The position numbers and the translations under genes are program-made. From a virus, in IMG/VR virus record IMGVR_UViG_3300034642_000158, positions 1 through 35,514 of that record: a stretch of 35,514 nucleotides of DNA. One strand, 5' to 3'. Below are positions 2,014-6,649 of the stretch, piece after piece; positions within the stretch are counted from its first letter, which is position 1; the number at the start of each line of letters is the position of its first letter. The notes beneath the pieces were generated by a model that was given only the letters and a program-made list of their open reading frames with translations, made no database searches and had not been told where the DNA came from.

Positions 2014-2219
2014 TACTTGTTGTGCGCTTGTCTATGTCCTTCAACTATAGCATCAACTATGATTTTTTTCAACTCTCTTGATTTTCTTTTACCAAGTCCT
2101 GCTCTGGTGTCAATCTTTACCTTAACCCAATAGAGTCCAATAAGAGTTAGGGTAAATGGAATTGCATCTGCCCATGAGATTTCATTCCATGCTTCTACGA
2201 CATTTAATACTCCAAACAT
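2013..2219 (-). CDS. Small membrane protein with basic tail, 68 aa
   Basis: A 68-residue product with one hydrophobic segment at about residues 19-35 (AIPFTLTLIGLYWVKV), followed by a strongly basic helix (GLGKRKSRELKKIIV). A single-pass inner or thylakoid membrane protein with a cytoplasmic basic tail is likely. It starts at a TAATG junction with the DUF6321-type gene and ends at a TAATG junction with the cupin-like gene. No family recognised; its function is open. Confidence 0.65.
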   Translation of the reverse strand: MFGVLNVVEAWNEISWADAIPFTLTLIGLYWVKVKIDTRAGLGKRKSRELKKIIVDAIVEGHRQAHNK

Positions 2220-2512
2220 TACTTACAATTCCATTTACGAAGTGATTTGTTAATCCTTGAATCAGGATCACGTGCTGTTTTTTTAGAAGTCAACTTCTTC
2301 TTCATGCCCTTCATTCTTTTACAAAATGAATTTTGTCTACCCTCTGCCTTACTACCCTTTTTAGGATTACCTGTTACAGGTGCTTTTAAATCGCTACCTG
2401 GATTGGCACGCTCATAAGACTTGCGACCCTTTTCATTGAGTCCACCCTCGGGATTTTTACCCGCCTTTTTTGTCCATGCCTCCTCAGCAATAAATTGAGA
2501 AAATGTTTTCAT
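2219..2512 (-). CDS. DUF6321-type protein with capsid-targeting-like N terminus, 97 aa
   Basis: The preferred ATG (2512) forms an ATGA overlap with the zinc-finger gene; a TTG five codons upstream is an alternative. The N terminus MKTFSQFIAEEA closely resembles the capsid targeting sequence of T4 internal proteins (MKTYQEFIAEA in IPI), which directs them into the prohead core and is cut after FIAE by the gp21 protease. The rest is Lys/Arg-rich, with a conserved-looking body (KNPEGGLNEKGRKSYERANP, then CKRMKGMKKKLTSKKTARDP and a Trp-Asn-Cys end) that I recognise as the DUF6321 type found in marine phages. The inferred role is a small DNA-associated protein packaged in the head, with the targeting peptide removed. 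The targeting function is inference from sequence likeness. Confidence 0.75.
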   Translation of the reverse strand: MKTFSQFIAEEAWTKKAGKNPEGGLNEKGRKSYERANPGSDLKAPVTGNPKKGSKAEGRQNSFCKRMKGMKKKLTSKKTARDPDSRINKSLRKWNCK

Positions 2513-2634
2513 GGTTTCTTGGGGCAATTTGCCTCATGTTTTTCTATGTAGGTCTTAGGTCTCCAATGACCCTTGGGTGCAGTCAAACCACAGTGGATGC
2601 AATACCACGTCCCATCTTCTTTTTGTTGTGCCAT
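2509..2634 (-). CDS. Zinc-finger-like peptide, 41 aa
   Basis: A 41-codon gene starts at ATG 2634, about 20 bases after a late promoter, and ends in an ATGA overlap with the DUF6321-type gene. The product begins MAQQKEDGTWYCIHCGL and has C12-x2-C15, then H33-x3-C37, a C2HC arrangement fitting a single zinc-binding finger. Basic residues (KGHWRPK) lie between the pairs. It could bind nucleic acid or a protein partner. No clear ribosome-binding site is visible. The gene is supported by promoter placement, the precise downstream overlap and the finger pattern. Confidence 0.7.
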   Translation of the reverse strand: MAQQKEDGTWYCIHCGLTAPKGHWRPKTYIEKHEANCPKKP

Positions 2635-2653: not shown

Positions 2654-2890
2654 TTATTTATGGTTTTTGAAAAACTCCTTCATAGTAGACTGCAACTGAC
2701 CCTCATTTTCTTTGGGGTCTAACTTATCATATCCCTTTACTTTCTTCCACTTGTTATACAATGCTTGGAGATGCCAAGATTGTGCCAGACTTCTTGCTCC
2801 GTTTTCTAGCAAGTCTAGCTCTTTGTTATCACTGGTGAAGGCTTTGTATTCTTCTCTCCAGTTAGTATCATCATAAAGTTGTTTAGTCAT
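2654..2890 (-). CDS. Hypothetical protein, 78 aa
   Basis: A hydrophilic, helical-looking protein with Trp/Lys-rich stretches (SWHLQALYNKWKKVKGYD) and a basic C terminus (FFKNHK). It starts at a TAATG junction with the 665-residue gene, so its translation is probably coupled to that protein. A late promoter overlaps its stop codon and drives the next gene. I do not recognise a family. Confidence 0.7.
   Translation of the reverse strand: MTKQLYDDTNWREEYKAFTSDNKELDLLENGARSLAQSWHLQALYNKWKKVKGYDKLDPKENEGQLQSTMKEFFKNHK
2655..2662 (-). promoter_or_regulatory. T4-type late promoter
   Basis: The minus strand reads CATAAATA followed by AAAC, matching the cyanophage late element NATAAATA that T4 gp55-type sigma factors recognise. 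It overlaps the stop of the 78-residue gene. The predicted start near 2649 leaves a leader of about 15 bases before the zinc-finger gene. Confidence 0.65.
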
Positions 2891-4887
2891 TATCCGTAAG
2901 TGAATGTTTTTCCTTTAATTTGTGATTGTCCTTCTGGGTTTTTACCTTGAGGTTTAAACTTACCAACGTTTACACCTTTTGCTTTGCCAAGTCCACCTTT
3001 TCTAGTTGCTGATAGTGTAGCAGATTTTTTCGTCTGTGTCAAGACCGAGTCCTGTCCATACTTTTTACCTAACTTTTTGACTGCTTTCTTAAACTTTCTC
3101 TTACCCATTTTACCACGGTCTATCACATGACTCTTCTCTTTTACCTTTCTCTCTTTACCATCATCACCCTTCTCCATGTAAGAGCCAGTTACTTTAGTAG
3201 CACCTCTACCAAACCTACCACGAATATCCTTATCTAATTGTTTTCCTCTTGCACTATTCTCTTTCTTAGACTTGTCACCTCTTGATGCAGACATGATAGC
3301 GATGCCACCTTTATCTGATTTGCTTTTTATTCTTGAGAGACTACTCTCGTTTATGAAGTCTTTGAAACTTACTTGCTCATACTTGTTTCTACCTGATGGT
3401 GAGGGCACTGTGCTATCAAAATGAGGATTATTCTTAGCAGCATCAGACTGTGAATCTCTCTTCTTCTGTAGCATCTTTGCTCTCTTATCAAGATACTTCT
3501 TCATAGCACCTGATGGTTTGCCTGAGCCTTTGTATAAACCATAAGATGTGCCTTCATCTACTTTATATGCAGGAACTTTTGCACCTTTTACACCACGACG
3601 TGCTTTGTGCTCTTCTCTGCGTTTCTCAATAGTTTTTCCTCTCTTACCTTCTGGGTCAAACATACCAGGTTCACCATAACCTGGCCCCATTCTTCTATAG
3701 TTTCTGATAGATGCTTTACCATAATCAGAACGACCCTTATCTACCTTTGCCTCTGGTATAACTTCTTCATTTGCGGGTAAGAAATTAACATATTTGTTGT
3801 GCTCTTTGTCTCTTAGTATCTTACGAGCAATAGCTCCTGCATCTCTACCAGTTGTTTTCTTAGCTGGTTTCTGTTTGATTCCTGCTGCTCTCTTCACCAT
3901 CTTCACCACACCTTCTTTCTGACAATCTGGCACAGACTTACCGCCTTTCATCTTAGTGCCTACTGCCTTGTATCCTTTCCAACAAGTTTTCTTATCTGGG
4001 TCTCTACCAATATTCTTCTTTGCTTTATCTAATGCTGTCTCTTCTTTCATACCCTTAGTCTTCACACCACGTGCTTTGAAGTGTTTTTTATGTCTTGCAT
4101 CCATTGCCACAAGTCTTTCAGCAGGGTCAGCAGCATTGCCACCTTTGCCTGATGCTCTCATGTTTCTGATAGATGCCTTACCATAGTTAGAGCGACCACG
4201 CTCTAGACTCAATCTTTGACCATCACTATCTTTTTGTCTTTCAGTGATGACTTCTTCGTCCACACCTTGTTTAGTAGCAACTCGATTTTTTGCAGCAACC
4301 TGTCTAGGCATTCCACCAGTCTCATCTGACTTCTTATTATGAAGAGCCCCATGGTCTGCAACCATTTTCTTTCTCTCATCACAGTTAACGTCTTCGACGT
4401 TGAGTGTTTCTGGGTAATTTTTATCACCTGGTTTTCTCTTGGGTTTGCCTGCTTTTCTTCTAGCGTGCACATTGTCCCATAGACCTTTCTTTTTCTCTTC
4501 AAGATTCTCCTCTCCCATGATTGCACCTTTTCCATACTTCTTCCTAATATCTGCCTTCACCTTCTCAAGTGCGGTATCCTTACCGTTATCTTTTTTCTTA
4601 GACACAGCTTTACCTGTAGCATATGACTGCCTATTCCTAGTTTCCTTTGACCGATGGTCTCCACCTCTCATGAGAATGTTATCTCTGTAGTGGTCGTAGC
4701 CTTCCTCATTCATTTTCTTTTTCTCAGGTAAACCTTTATGTTTAGTAGAAGCGAATTTCTTTACGCTGGAACGCTTGGCGGTGGCAGCAACTTCGGCAAC
4801 CTCAGGCGAGGGATTTTCCATTTCCCCTTTCTGAGCCGCTCTAACCATCCCGAAGAATCTTTGTTGTTTTCTCGAGACTGCAGGCAT
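2890..4887 (-). CDS. Large Lys/Arg-rich DUF3008-type modular protein, 665 aa (possible internal head polyprotein)
   Basis: The N terminus, MPAVSRKQQRFFGMVRAAQK, is the DUF3008-type segment seen in cyanophage proteins. The rest is a string of very basic, low-complexity modules. These are a GLWDNVHARRKAGKPKRKPG block (residues 135-154), two copies of RS(N/D)YGKASIRN (232-242 and 386-396), each followed by an ARHKKHFKARGVK- or KRREEHKARRGVK-type stretch, and a C-terminal domain from about 515 with an N-x2-R...DIR...KYGQDSVL pattern (DUF3293-like at best). I-x-E sites occur at ITE|R (216), IPE|A (379) and INE|S (514). The first two directly precede the repeated module and the third follows SFKDF, a capsid-targeting look-alike. 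This suggests processing by the prohead protease. A GGAGG ribosome-binding site precedes the ATG. Function is inferred, not shown. Confidence 0.7.
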   Translation of the reverse strand: MPAVSRKQQRFFGMVRAAQKGEMENPSPEVAEVAATAKRSSVKKFASTKHKGLPEKKKMNEEGYDHYRDNILMRGGDHRSKETRNRQSYATGKAVSKKKDNGKDTALEKVKADIRKKYGKGAIMGEENLEEKKKGLWDNVHARRKAGKPKRKPGDKNYPETLNVEDVNCDERKKMVADHGALHNKKSDETGGMPRQVAAKNRVATKQGVDEEVITERQKDSDGQRLSLERGRSNYGKASIRNMRASGKGGNAADPAERLVAMDARHKKHFKARGVKTKGMKEETALDKAKKNIGRDPDKKTCWKGYKAVGTKMKGGKSVPDCQKEGVVKMVKRAAGIKQKPAKKTTGRDAGAIARKILRDKEHNKYVNFLPANEEVIPEAKVDKGRSDYGKASIRNYRRMGPGYGEPGMFDPEGKRGKTIEKRREEHKARRGVKGAKVPAYKVDEGTSYGLYKGSGKPSGAMKKYLDKRAKMLQKKRDSQSDAAKNNPHFDSTVPSPSGRNKYEQVSFKDFINESSLSRIKSKSDKGGIAIMSASRGDKSKKENSARGKQLDKDIRGRFGRGATKVTGSYMEKGDDGKERKVKEKSHVIDRGKMGKRKFKKAVKKLGKKYGQDSVLTQTKKSATLSATRKGGLGKAKGVNVGKFKPQGKNPEGQSQIKGKTFTYG
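3700..3732 (-). repeat. Second copy of RS(N/D)YGKASIRN module
   Basis: Residues 386-396 of the 665-residue protein (RSDYGKASIRN) repeat residues 232-242 with a single Asn/Asp change. The DNA differs mainly at third positions, which suggests an old duplication kept by selection on the protein. Confidence 0.8.
4162..4194 (-). repeat. First copy of RS(N/D)YGKASIRN module
   Basis: Residues 232-242 (RSNYGKASIRN) of the 665-residue protein. As in the second copy, a (D/N)EEVI(T/P)E segment lies shortly upstream and a Lys/Arg/His-rich helix downstream, so the repeated unit is longer than this core. Confidence 0.8.
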
Positions 4888-4890
4888 GAG

Positions 4891-5424
4891 TTAGCCTCCG
4901 ACAATTTGGACTTGCTCAACGACAACGTTGGCAGACCCTGCAGTAAGTTTAACTGCTTTTTGAATAACAGGGACTGTGCCTGCTTCAAGTTTTGCTGATG
5001 CAAGTGCGTAATCTGCACTAGCTCCTGACGAGTCATAATCTGTAGTGATAGTTGTATCTGTGATAGCAGTAATCTTCTTACCACCACTCGCTGCTGTTAC
5101 GAAATCAGATGTGAATGCTGCATCACCATCTGCAGCAGTCGAGATGTAATCTCCGACTACGAATCTATGAGCAGGAGTACCACCACCTAATACAGTAACA
5201 ACCATAGTGGCAGCATCAGTAGCTGCTTTAATTTGAGCATTCTTCGATTTACCCACAGACAAAAGAATTGCTTCTCCTGCAGCAAGAGTTATAGCAGGTC
5301 CTGCATCAATCTGAATAGTTGAAGCACTTGCCGCGTATGCACGAATCACGCCAGATTTTACAGTGATATAGCCTGAGCCAGACCCTGTAATTGTTTGTGT
5401 GTCAATGACGTTTAATACTGACAT
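4891..5424 (-). CDS. Ala/Thr/Gly-rich putative virion protein, 177 aa
   Basis: The protein is rich in Ala, Thr, Gly and Val, with alternating strand-like segments and almost no charge, typical of beta-structured virion or decoration proteins. A central part (about residues 85-140) reads HRFVVGDYISTAADGDAAFT and looks like an insertion between two flanking beta regions. The ATG at 5424 follows a good ribosome-binding site (AAGGAGAA) and a dedicated late promoter at 5450..5457, which suggests high late expression. It follows gp16 and precedes the 665-residue protein. I believe it belongs to a cyanophage structural family, but I cannot name it or place it in the particle. Confidence 0.6.
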   Translation of the reverse strand: MSVLNVIDTQTITGSGSGYITVKSGVIRAYAASASTIQIDAGPAITLAAGEAILLSVGKSKNAQIKAATDAATMVVTVLGGGTPAHRFVVGDYISTAADGDAAFTSDFVTAASGGKKITAITDTTITTDYDSSGASADYALASAKLEAGTVPVIQKAVKLTAGSANVVVEQVQIVGG

Positions 5425-5448
5425 TGTATTTGGATTCTCCTTACTAGA

Positions 5449-5892
5449 CTATTTATCGCGTTGTTGTTTTAAGAATTTAGCAAGGTCAGCTGTGCTACCA
5501 ACAAACATTGTATTGTTTGTAGTATTAACTTGCTTATCTTTCTTAGGATTTTCAATCTCGTTGACCTTTTTCTGTAGGTCTACAAGTTTGTCAGCAACGT
5601 CTCCGACATGTTTAATTAACTGTCCTGCAACCTCAAACGCACGAGGTTGGTCTGACTCTTGTGCCAACTCAAGTATACCGTCTACCGCTTCTTGACCCTT
5701 TTCAACCAATGAGTATAGATGACCACGAGTATACTCATAGTCTTTCTTTAATTGCTCTTTTGTAGATGTAGTATCAACTACTTCTACTTTTGGTTTTTCT
5801 ACAGGGACGATATCTGACTGGACATCAAGGGCTTCCTCGATACCATCAAACTTACTCGTCTTGTCCTGTGACTGGGTTTCTCGACTTGGCAT
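5449..5892 (-). CDS. 16: Terminase small subunit gp16
   Basis: The 147-residue protein resembles T4 gp16 (164 residues), the DNA-recognising regulator of the packaging motor. It has a charged N terminus, a central helical hairpin (about residues 45-110, TRGHLYSLVEKGQEAVDGIL then QPRAFEVAGQLIKHVGDVAD) and a C-terminal NNTMFVGSTADLAKFL that parallels the NATVFMGSPTEL end of T4 gp16. The frame stays open upstream, but the ATG at 5892 (MPSRETQSQDKTSKF) is preferred for length and overlaps gp15 by 41 bases. It follows gp13-14-15 as in T4. The large subunit gp17 is not in the window and several small genes follow instead, a looser arrangement than in T4. Confidence 0.88.
   Translation of the reverse strand: MPSRETQSQDKTSKFDGIEEALDVQSDIVPVEKPKVEVVDTTSTKEQLKKDYEYTRGHLYSLVEKGQEAVDGILELAQESDQPRAFEVAGQLIKHVGDVADKLVDLQKKVNEIENPKKDKQVNTTNNTMFVGSTADLAKFLKQQRDK
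5450..5457 (-). promoter_or_regulatory. T4-type late promoter
   Basis: The minus strand reads GATAAATA, fitting NATAAATA, and overlaps the end of gp16. The predicted start near 5444 gives a leader of about 20 bases that carries the AAGGAGAA ribosome-binding site of the 177-residue virion protein. Confidence 0.65.
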
Positions 5893-6649
5893 CTGTAAAC
5901 TCACTGTATATTTCGTTAAAACCAAAGTTGTCGTCAGGGTCAGCAGTAATTGGGTCTGGTTGCACCTGATATCTAACCTCCCTTGTAGGCATGGTTTTAT
6001 CTTTTGTATTATAATCAACAATAGCCTTCTTGATAATCTCTGAGTCTGCGTCTTGCACAGGACCGTATAGAAATGTCTTAGCTATAAATGATAAATTATA
6101 AACCAGAGTACGACGTGTATCGTAATCTCCCTCATAAACATCTTCATAATCAATAGCAGTTAGAGTGACTGGATAGTCTCTCTTCTCACCTAGTTCTGGG
6201 ACTAGATTCATTGTGATAGTAAATGAAGGTTGAAAGAATGGAAGAATCTGCTCTAGTATTTGTAGAGAATCATCTTGATTCTTTGCCATGATAGACAATT
6301 CAAAATTAACGTTATATGGTATTGGCATATAACTTTTTACATTGTCTCCCGCAGCTTTAGTGTTGCGGATATATTGTGTAGGTGAAAGTTTTCTTGTTGC
6401 GTCATAACTAATACCTTGTATCTCGAAAGATAATCTAGGTAAAGTAATCTGCACTTGGTCTTTAGTAGTTAAATCTCCTACTGCAGCTAAGCGAGTAAGA
6501 AACTTTTGTCTAGGACCATAAGCAAGAGGGACTTTCATCACCTCTGTTTTGCTACCTTTAGTGCGTCGGATTTCAATGTTATTGAAAAGTGTACCGAAAC
6601 CGATAACAGTCTTTTTAATTATTTCATGATAAGAATATGTGCCCAACAT
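5852..6649 (-). CDS. 15: Tail sheath stabilizer / tail completion protein gp15
   Basis: The 265-residue protein matches the T4 gp15 family (272 residues). The hallmarks are an N terminus MLGTYSYHEIIKKTVIGFGT with NIEIRR soon after, the segment PYNVNFELSIMAKNQDDSLQ, then ILEQILPFFQPSFTITMNL, which is nearly that of T4. In T4, gp15 forms the hexameric ring that caps the tail tube and sheath and joins the tail to the gp13/gp14 neck. The ATG shares its A with the TAA of gp14 (TAATG), and the 3' end overlaps gp16 by 41 bases. Confidence 0.93.
   Translation of the reverse strand: MLGTYSYHEIIKKTVIGFGTLFNNIEIRRTKGSKTEVMKVPLAYGPRQKFLTRLAAVGDLTTKDQVQITLPRLSFEIQGISYDATRKLSPTQYIRNTKAAGDNVKSYMPIPYNVNFELSIMAKNQDDSLQILEQILPFFQPSFTITMNLVPELGEKRDYPVTLTAIDYEDVYEGDYDTRRTLVYNLSFIAKTFLYGPVQDADSEIIKKAIVDYNTKDKTMPTREVRYQVQPDPITADPDDNFGFNEIYSEFTDAKSRNPVTGQDE

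Follow-up and report, generated by a model that had tools for sequence, protein, structure and literature searches.

Organization of the Locus

The window analyzed here, meaning the whole stretch of 35,514 nucleotides (positions 1 to 35,514 of the 38.8-kb IMG/VR virus record IMGVR_UViG_3300034642_000158), is part of the genome of a T4-like cyanomyovirus and encodes homologues of gp13, gp14, gp15, and gp16, tail proteins, and a plastoquinol terminal oxidase. An original prediction made from the letters of this DNA had placed a very basic protein of 665 residues at 2890-4887. The ORF proved to be real and is read from the minus strand; stop codons riddle the plus strand of the same interval. Its product (P0001) has a pI of 10.2 and a net charge of +88. 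The following features were found at and around this gene:

2219..2527, minus strand: DUF6321 ORF with an N-terminal targeting-like leader (MPQETMKTFSQFIAEE); PF19846, E 2e-22
2483..2512, minus strand: leader MKTFSQFIAE of the DUF6321 ORF
2890..4887, minus strand: 665-aa putative modular precursor protein (P0001), based on the ORF, its charge, and full-length mosaic relatives in IMG/VR
4891..5424, minus strand: DUF7243 ORF, first gene of a putative late operon upstream of the precursor; PF23891, E 2.4e-54
5450..5457, minus strand: late-promoter-like box GATAAATA, 31 nt before the DUF7243 ORF

Outside its C-terminal domain, P0001 consists of short basic modules arranged as a mosaic, and relatives in IMG/VR contain the same modules in an order that varies from one relative to another. 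The cuts proposed below would divide the protein into four pieces, each of which is basic (+16 to +30), in agreement with the several basic peptides that had been predicted. The label "DUF3008-type" was not confirmed, as P0001 showed neither a Pfam match at E<=1, in a Pfam copy whose inclusion of the DUF3008 model was not established, nor an NCBIfam match.

The stop codon of the DUF7243 ORF lies 3 nt before the start of the precursor gene. In two reference cyanophages, virion genes were marked by a TAAATA box located 18-45 nt ahead of the start codon (p about 1e-8 in each), and the box was present before 27 of 31 distinct standalone relatives of the P0001 C-terminal domain, compared with 15 of 487 other ORFs. 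From this arrangement we infer that P0001 is a late-type gene, transcribed through the operon behind the GATAAATA box.

A SAM Lyase Domain at the C-Terminus

Residues 531-662 of P0001 matched the SAM lyase family PF23780 in a Pfam scan (E 2.9e-18; 70.4 bits against a Pfam gathering cut-off of 28), and the C-terminal domain is a member of that family. An AlphaFold2 model of the lyase, calculated from an alignment without T3, had a mean pLDDT of 70.6; an earlier model from a shallow alignment (pLDDT 51.6) was excluded from claims about the fold. When the model was compared with known structures using VIA-align, the best match was the T3 SAM lyase (8bb1_E; Z 11.8, rmsd 3.4, 123 residues), and Svi3-3 (6znb) gave a Z of 8.0 versus about 6 for unrelated ferredoxin-like folds. 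The T3 and Svi3-3 lyases also ranked first in Foldseek, with E just over 0.001. A PDB sequence search using alignments without T3 returned no SAM lyase match, and the match obtained with a further alignment is partly circular because T3 was within the profile.

Aligned with the T3 SAMase and distant relatives, the domain keeps the G-x-Y, E-x-S, and Q-D/E-S active-site positions, the exact counterpart of the Glu being less certain in a second lyase subtype described below. The Gly, Tyr, Glu, and Gln of SAM lyases are reported as strictly conserved or catalytic (PMC7877911), and we consider it highly likely that the domain cleaves SAM, with the reservation that SAM and SAM-AMP activity cannot be told apart from sequence because only Glu and Gln are structurally shared with SAM-AMP lyases (PMC12255297). 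The original prediction of several basic peptides overlooked the enzyme in the C-terminal piece. The main cargo is thus a SAM lyase and not an anonymous basic peptide, and this piece would be better explained by the delivery of an enzyme against host defences than by DNA condensation.

A T4-Type Targeting Motif Directly Precedes the Lyase

The domain match starts 17 residues past the candidate cleavage site INE514↓S, where the arrow marks the proposed cut. Two features are concerned:

3346..3369, minus strand: internal T4-type capsid-targeting-like motif SFKDFINE, residues 507-514, with the candidate cut INE514↓S
2893..3345, minus strand: predicted released product, residues 515-665, SAM lyase, based on PF23780, the fold match, and the active-site positions

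In T4, the first ten residues of an internal protein suffice for packaging, residues 4 and 7 serving targeting and residues 8 and 10 processing, and gp21 cleaves after L/I-x-E (PMC9026906). The T4-type leader pattern, with aromatic or hydrophobic residues at positions 4, 7, and 8 and Glu at position 10, was present in P0001 as SFKDFINE, and this segment fits F-x2-F-I-x-E as the original prediction had described. The P0001 leader is internal (residues 507-514), whereas it is N-terminal in standalone relatives and in all proven T4 targeting sequences.

Eighty close lyase relatives were fetched, and most of them were standalone ORFs starting with MKT(F/Y)KEF(I/L/M/V)xE↓SSLSRIKSK. The cultured phage P-TIM68 is one example of a relative with a standalone MKTFKEF lyase. 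The leader of these late-type genes (for example, MKTYKEFIQE) is nearly identical to the MKTYQEFIAE↓A with which T4 ipII and ipIII start. Lyases with only 28-33% identity mostly kept a recognizable leader, such as TTFKEFLTE↓SS or QTFAEFLVE↓SS, whereas the leader was absent from the T3 SAMase, an early gene, in the alignment. A second lyase subtype (GN.T(A/G)RM...) was fused to mosaics and carried [FY]xx[FYW][ILF]xE directly ahead at 68 of 68 loci, corresponding to 32 of 32 distinct contexts, with some of these fusions reading TYKEFIAE↓G. Fused proteins were alike up to SFK(D/N) and then continued with either lyase subtype from the motif onward, and the motif before the lyase was kept in every fused relative examined that had a complete domain. 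That the leader might be part of the enzyme fold was also considered and is disfavored, as the stub had a pLDDT <50, lies outside PF23780, and is present on unrelated virion proteins. In S-CREM2 and S-H34, a DNA adenine methylase gene lies close to the gene for the lyase.

Candidate Cleavage Sites at the Other Module Junctions

The remaining junctions and modules of P0001 are as follows:

4708..4887, minus strand: N-terminal module, residues 1-60 (MPAVSRKQQRFFGM...GLPEKK); phrog_30268, 61% identity to SSCSM1_93
4681..4701, minus strand: start of the GYDHYRD module, residues 63-69, after MNE↓E, based on the contexts in relatives
4240..4248, minus strand: candidate cleavage site ITE216↓R; relatives have ITE, IPE, LTE, LNE, or VDE here
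4162..4194, minus strand: first RSNYGKASIRN copy, residues 232-242
3751..3759, minus strand: candidate cleavage site IPE379↓A, before module AKVDKGRSDYGKASIRN, based on upstream contexts
3700..3732, minus strand: second RSDYGKASIRN copy, residues 386-396
3526..3552, minus strand: start of the GTSYGLYKG module, residues 446-454, after VDE445↓G; Glu directly ahead in 10/10 distinct contexts

ITE216↓R, IPE379↓A, and INE514↓S are the sole I-x-E sites in P0001 and lie at the residues originally given for them. DEEVITE and NEEVIPE do stand ahead of the two RS(N/D)YGKASIRN copies, with gaps of 15 and 6 residues. The number of I-x-E sites alone was not significant (3 against a mean of 1.2 in shuffles of P0001, P=0.12), [ILVMF]-x-E was found 12 times against 7.0 in such shuffles (P=0.03), and the targeting motif [FY]xx[FY][ILMVF]xE was found once against 0.016 expected. 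Comparative data are stronger evidence for the sites than these shuffle counts.

The alignment of homologues that had been proposed as a check gave a clean result for site 514. For the junctions of the 216/379 type, the P1 Glu preceded the AKVDxGRS(D/N)YGKAS module in 42 of 42 distinct upstream contexts, whereas a strict I/L at P3 did not hold: V, I, L, or M occupied P3 in 74% of contexts, with other residues in some relatives. I/L/V/M were much rarer at P2 (12%) and P5 (7%) of the same contexts. At P3 they occurred in 92% of contexts of lyase subtype 1 and in 20% of those of GTSYGLYKG, a junction at which P3 is mostly non-hydrophobic. GYDHYRD was preceded by EE in 10 of 10 distinct contexts, with I/L/V/M two residues before the first Glu in nine of them, and in one relative by the full targeting motif YSDFISEE. 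Small residues, most commonly G, S, or A, occupied P1' at the junctions in relatives, and P2 and the flanks were variable. When module starts were sought automatically across all ORFs, the output was noisy and contained antisense frames and tail fibres. At the expected position, the major capsid protein (MCP) precursors of related phages read FLSE↓A, LVTE↓A, ILSE↓T, VLNE↓T, LLTE↓A, and FLAE↓A; because such sites occur there, V at P3 and T at P1' are apparently tolerated. Cutting at 514 is predicted as likely, and cutting at 216 and 379, which are supported less firmly by these alignments, as only a little more probable than its absence.

Homologues in Purified Virions

The lyase homologue of S-CREM2 (ORF6, "SAM hydrolase"), which is 60% identical to the P0001 lyase, was detected in CsCl-purified virions by 19 unique peptides (26.3% coverage), the virion peptides being published as counts (PMC10665884). 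Its leader is N-terminal and a weaker match (MKDFDSFLEE, then LEE↓SS). The S-CREM2 authors proposed that the SAM hydrolase enters the host to act against restriction, and the accessible part of their paper names no targeting sequence, processing, or polyprotein (PMC10665884). The earlier statement that no description of this protein in such a role was known is partly out of date, virion carriage and a proposed injection having been published for this homologue. In a literature search confined mostly to journals outside subscription, "capsid targeting sequence" and cyanophages were joined only in a T4 review, and DUF6321, DUF3008, and DUF7243 were not mentioned.

Virion proteins of S-SCSM1 have been determined by mass spectrometry (PMC9602691). 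SSCSM1_93 of this phage is a 69-aa stand-alone version of the N-terminal module and is annotated as "virion protein", and the DUF6321 homologues SSCSM1_29 and S-CREM2 ORF137 are likewise virion proteins. In the proteomes of S-CREM2 and S-SCSM1 together, 4/4 matches of P0001 or its DUF6321 neighbor were virion proteins, compared with a base rate of 20%, where virion mass spectrometry reports presence in the particle and not location inside the head.

The pattern [FYL]xxF[ILMVF]xE was found within the first 25 residues of 8/99 virion proteins versus 2/401 other proteins of the two phages (p=5.9e-5), which is strong evidence with a p-value that is optimistic and not independent because the pattern was settled after some S-CREM2 proteins had been seen. 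The same pattern gave p=1.8e-4 in S-CREM2 alone. In S-SCSM1 alone, the strict leader pattern was not significant (p=0.14) and a very loose N-terminal hydrophobic pattern showed no enrichment (p=0.74). Besides the lyase, a Cas9-like nuclease, an APH-like kinase, and a cytidylyltransferase are among the S-CREM2 virion proteins with the leader. Packaging of P0001 itself is predicted with high confidence.

Proposed Mechanism and Alternatives

That the protein goes into the prohead and is cleaved after Glu, as originally proposed, is supported by the conserved motif, the invariant junction Glu, the virion homologues, and the motif enrichment. The reading we prefer, and regard as probable, is that P0001 is an internal head precursor that is processed by the prohead protease and delivers a SAM lyase. 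The precursor would be synthesized late in a T4-like cyanomyovirus and brought into the prohead core by T4-type targeting sequences, where a gp21-type prohead protease would cut after Glu at the junctions, most securely at INE514↓S; ITE216↓R, IPE379↓A, and further junctions of the [I/L/V/M]-x-E type are probable additional sites. Because a T4-style tag stands directly before the SAM lyase, release of the enzyme within the head and its delivery along with the DNA are probable: the cut at 514 would release the C-terminal lyase, which would be kept in the head and enter the next host together with the genome. By splitting SAM into methylthioadenosine and homoserine lactone there, it would starve defences that depend on SAM (type I/III restriction, BREX) before any phage gene is expressed. 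Cleavage, injection, the enzymatic activity of P0001, and the defence target are what we infer, and an injected anti-defence function appears moderately likely.

The motif might instead serve to package the precursor and dock it to the core, with the internal junctions left uncut and the lyase working within the intact fusion or being structural. The departures of P3 at 216/379, often V, from the L/I-x-E described for T4 gp21 would agree with this; however, conservation concentrated at a P1 Glu, a hydrophobic P3, and a small P1', with P2 and the flanks variable, is a gp21-type signature, and standalone relatives share the same starting point, preceded by the leader and nothing else, so that we regard an uncut fusion as unlikely. 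The junction Glu residues could also be favored points of recombination in mosaic genes and have nothing to do with proteolysis. These proteins are clearly shuffled, and the repeated module keeps E-A-K-V-D as a single unit, but unrelated modules (AKVD, GYDH, and both lyase subtypes) all begin after Glu, mostly with a hydrophobic P3, although the sequences upstream of them are wholly different. A hotspot in DNA cannot account for selection at P3 with P2 left free, and this explanation is rather improbable.

Two further alternatives concern function and were given still less weight. If the lyase acted late in the producing cell, for example to reduce SAM levels or hold down the methylation of progeny DNA, its carriage in virions would be incidental. 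The late-type promoters of these genes and the adenine methylase gene near the lyase in S-CREM2 and S-H34 are compatible with such a role, which would leave without reason both the conserved T4-like leader and the 19 peptides from CsCl-purified virions; moreover, an anti-defence lyase is useful before DNA entry is complete, and we consider action in the producing cell highly improbable. Condensation of DNA by the basic peptide products, which the original prediction had put forward, draws on the basic charge of four of four pieces (+16 to +30). Yet the most conserved and separately maintained piece is an enzyme with an intact active site, T4 internal proteins with other functions are also basic, and P0001 matched no DNA-condensing family in Pfam or phrog profiles; condensation is the least credible of these explanations and was assigned almost no weight.

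Comparison with Known Systems

A processed precursor that carries a lyase would resemble several known systems without coinciding with any of them. As proposed for P0001, T4 IPI, IPII, IPIII, and Alt are basic, late, and head-internal, carry the leader [FY]xxFIxE, and are cut by gp21 after Glu; one of them, IPI, is injected and inhibits a restriction enzyme (PMC9026906, PMC3012670). P0001 differs from them in that its leader lies inside a 665-aa mosaic, its cargo is a SAM lyase, and it has extra candidate junctions. It would work like a T4 internal protein and was not filed as one because its leader is internal. To our knowledge, no T4 internal protein has been described as a SAM lyase.

The T3 SAMase (gene 0.3) is an anti-restriction and anti-BREX enzyme, and its fold and active-site positions, like those of Svi3-3, are common with the P0001 lyase. 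It is early and leaderless, whereas the P0001 gene is late-type with a putative head-targeting leader; the T3 enzyme has been described as the earliest viral protein to be expressed (PMC8406200). The DarA, DarB, and Hdf proteins of P1 are packaged in the head and injected against restriction, some after processing by the prohead protease, and DarB has a 30-residue N-terminal packaging signal (PMC9024508, PMC12810830). Unlike P0001, the Dar proteins are not known to include a SAM lyase. T4 gp22/gp67 and the head proteins of SPN3US/phiKZ-type phages provide a precedent for one precursor with several short Glu-dependent prohead-protease sites, as proposed here; T4 core fragments are mostly expelled, whereas at least one fragment of P0001 would stay as an enzyme.

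If correct, the proposed processing would join T4-style injected inhibitors and T3-style destruction of SAM in one molecule that could act ahead of all viral gene expression. It predicts new N termini at S515, A380, and R217, and a requirement of the leader for packaging. The leader would also allow the proteins that abundant marine viruses bring into their hosts to be recognized from sequence, for which only virion proteomics was available before.

More tentatively, [FY]xxF[ILM]xE could be a portable code, N-terminal or inside mosaics, that loads changing enzymes into the heads of T4-like cyanophages, with internal copies making polyproteins that are split into injected effectors; SAM lyase, NMNAT/cytidylyltransferase, kinase, and Cas9-like nuclease might then form its cargo set. 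Both proposals fall somewhat short of an even chance. A scan of 540 kb of related phage DNA (2119 ORF segments) with the strict leader marked few proteins only: the lyase family, a virion NMNAT, the DUF6321 neighbor, one small ORF of the structural region, and one probable chance match.

Packaged Proteins and Targeting-Like Motifs in Related Phages

The precursor ORF is located after the small terminase gene (region compared in the window: 4891-6021), and packaged proteins are encoded behind this gene in both reference phages:
S-CREM2, interval 107301-109521: packaged proteins ORF136-137
S-SCSM1, interval 35707-45287: packaged proteins, most of ORF26-31

Beside the precursor, the DUF6321 ORF (window 2219-2527, minus strand) starts with MPQETMKTFSQFIAEE, which nearly matches the T4 ipII/ipIII leader; its homologues in S-SCSM1 and S-CREM2 are virion proteins. 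Targeting-like leaders (FASFMAE, FDAFLTE, FSSFLTE, and others) were also detected on several virion-associated proteins of S-CREM2 (ORFs 6, 12, 13, 14, 136, and 154; fetched sequences L095 and L097), among them a Cas9-like nuclease, an APH-like kinase, and a cytidylyltransferase. On NMNAT-like and other proteins, such leaders precede a second domain that recurs (LNL..DGHGxWYD or LxHVGY):
fetched sequence L085, 1194-2423
loci with MK(K/N)FSxFL(D/T)EA...

Targeting-like motifs were present at C termini as well: the virion protein SSCSM1_93 (L085:4001-4210) ends in ...KRTFKEFLEYIE, and the Cas9-like protein of S-CREM2, the end of which lies at L083:1-327, carries ...KTFRDFLN. In S-CREM2 and S-H34 (L083 and L084), a DNA adenine methylase gene is followed by one small ORF and then, downstream, by the lyase gene; EcoRI-like and Cas9-like genes are also near the lyase gene in S-CREM2.

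A GFTG...GPxAGYDP segment, resembling the N-terminal segment of mature major capsid protein, was observed in small proteins of three phages:
P-TIM68, 147056-147169 (fetched sequence L265)
S-CREM2, ORF160
S-SCSM1, SSCSM1_97

The segment is perhaps a capsid-binding mimic. Two of these three small proteins are virion proteins.
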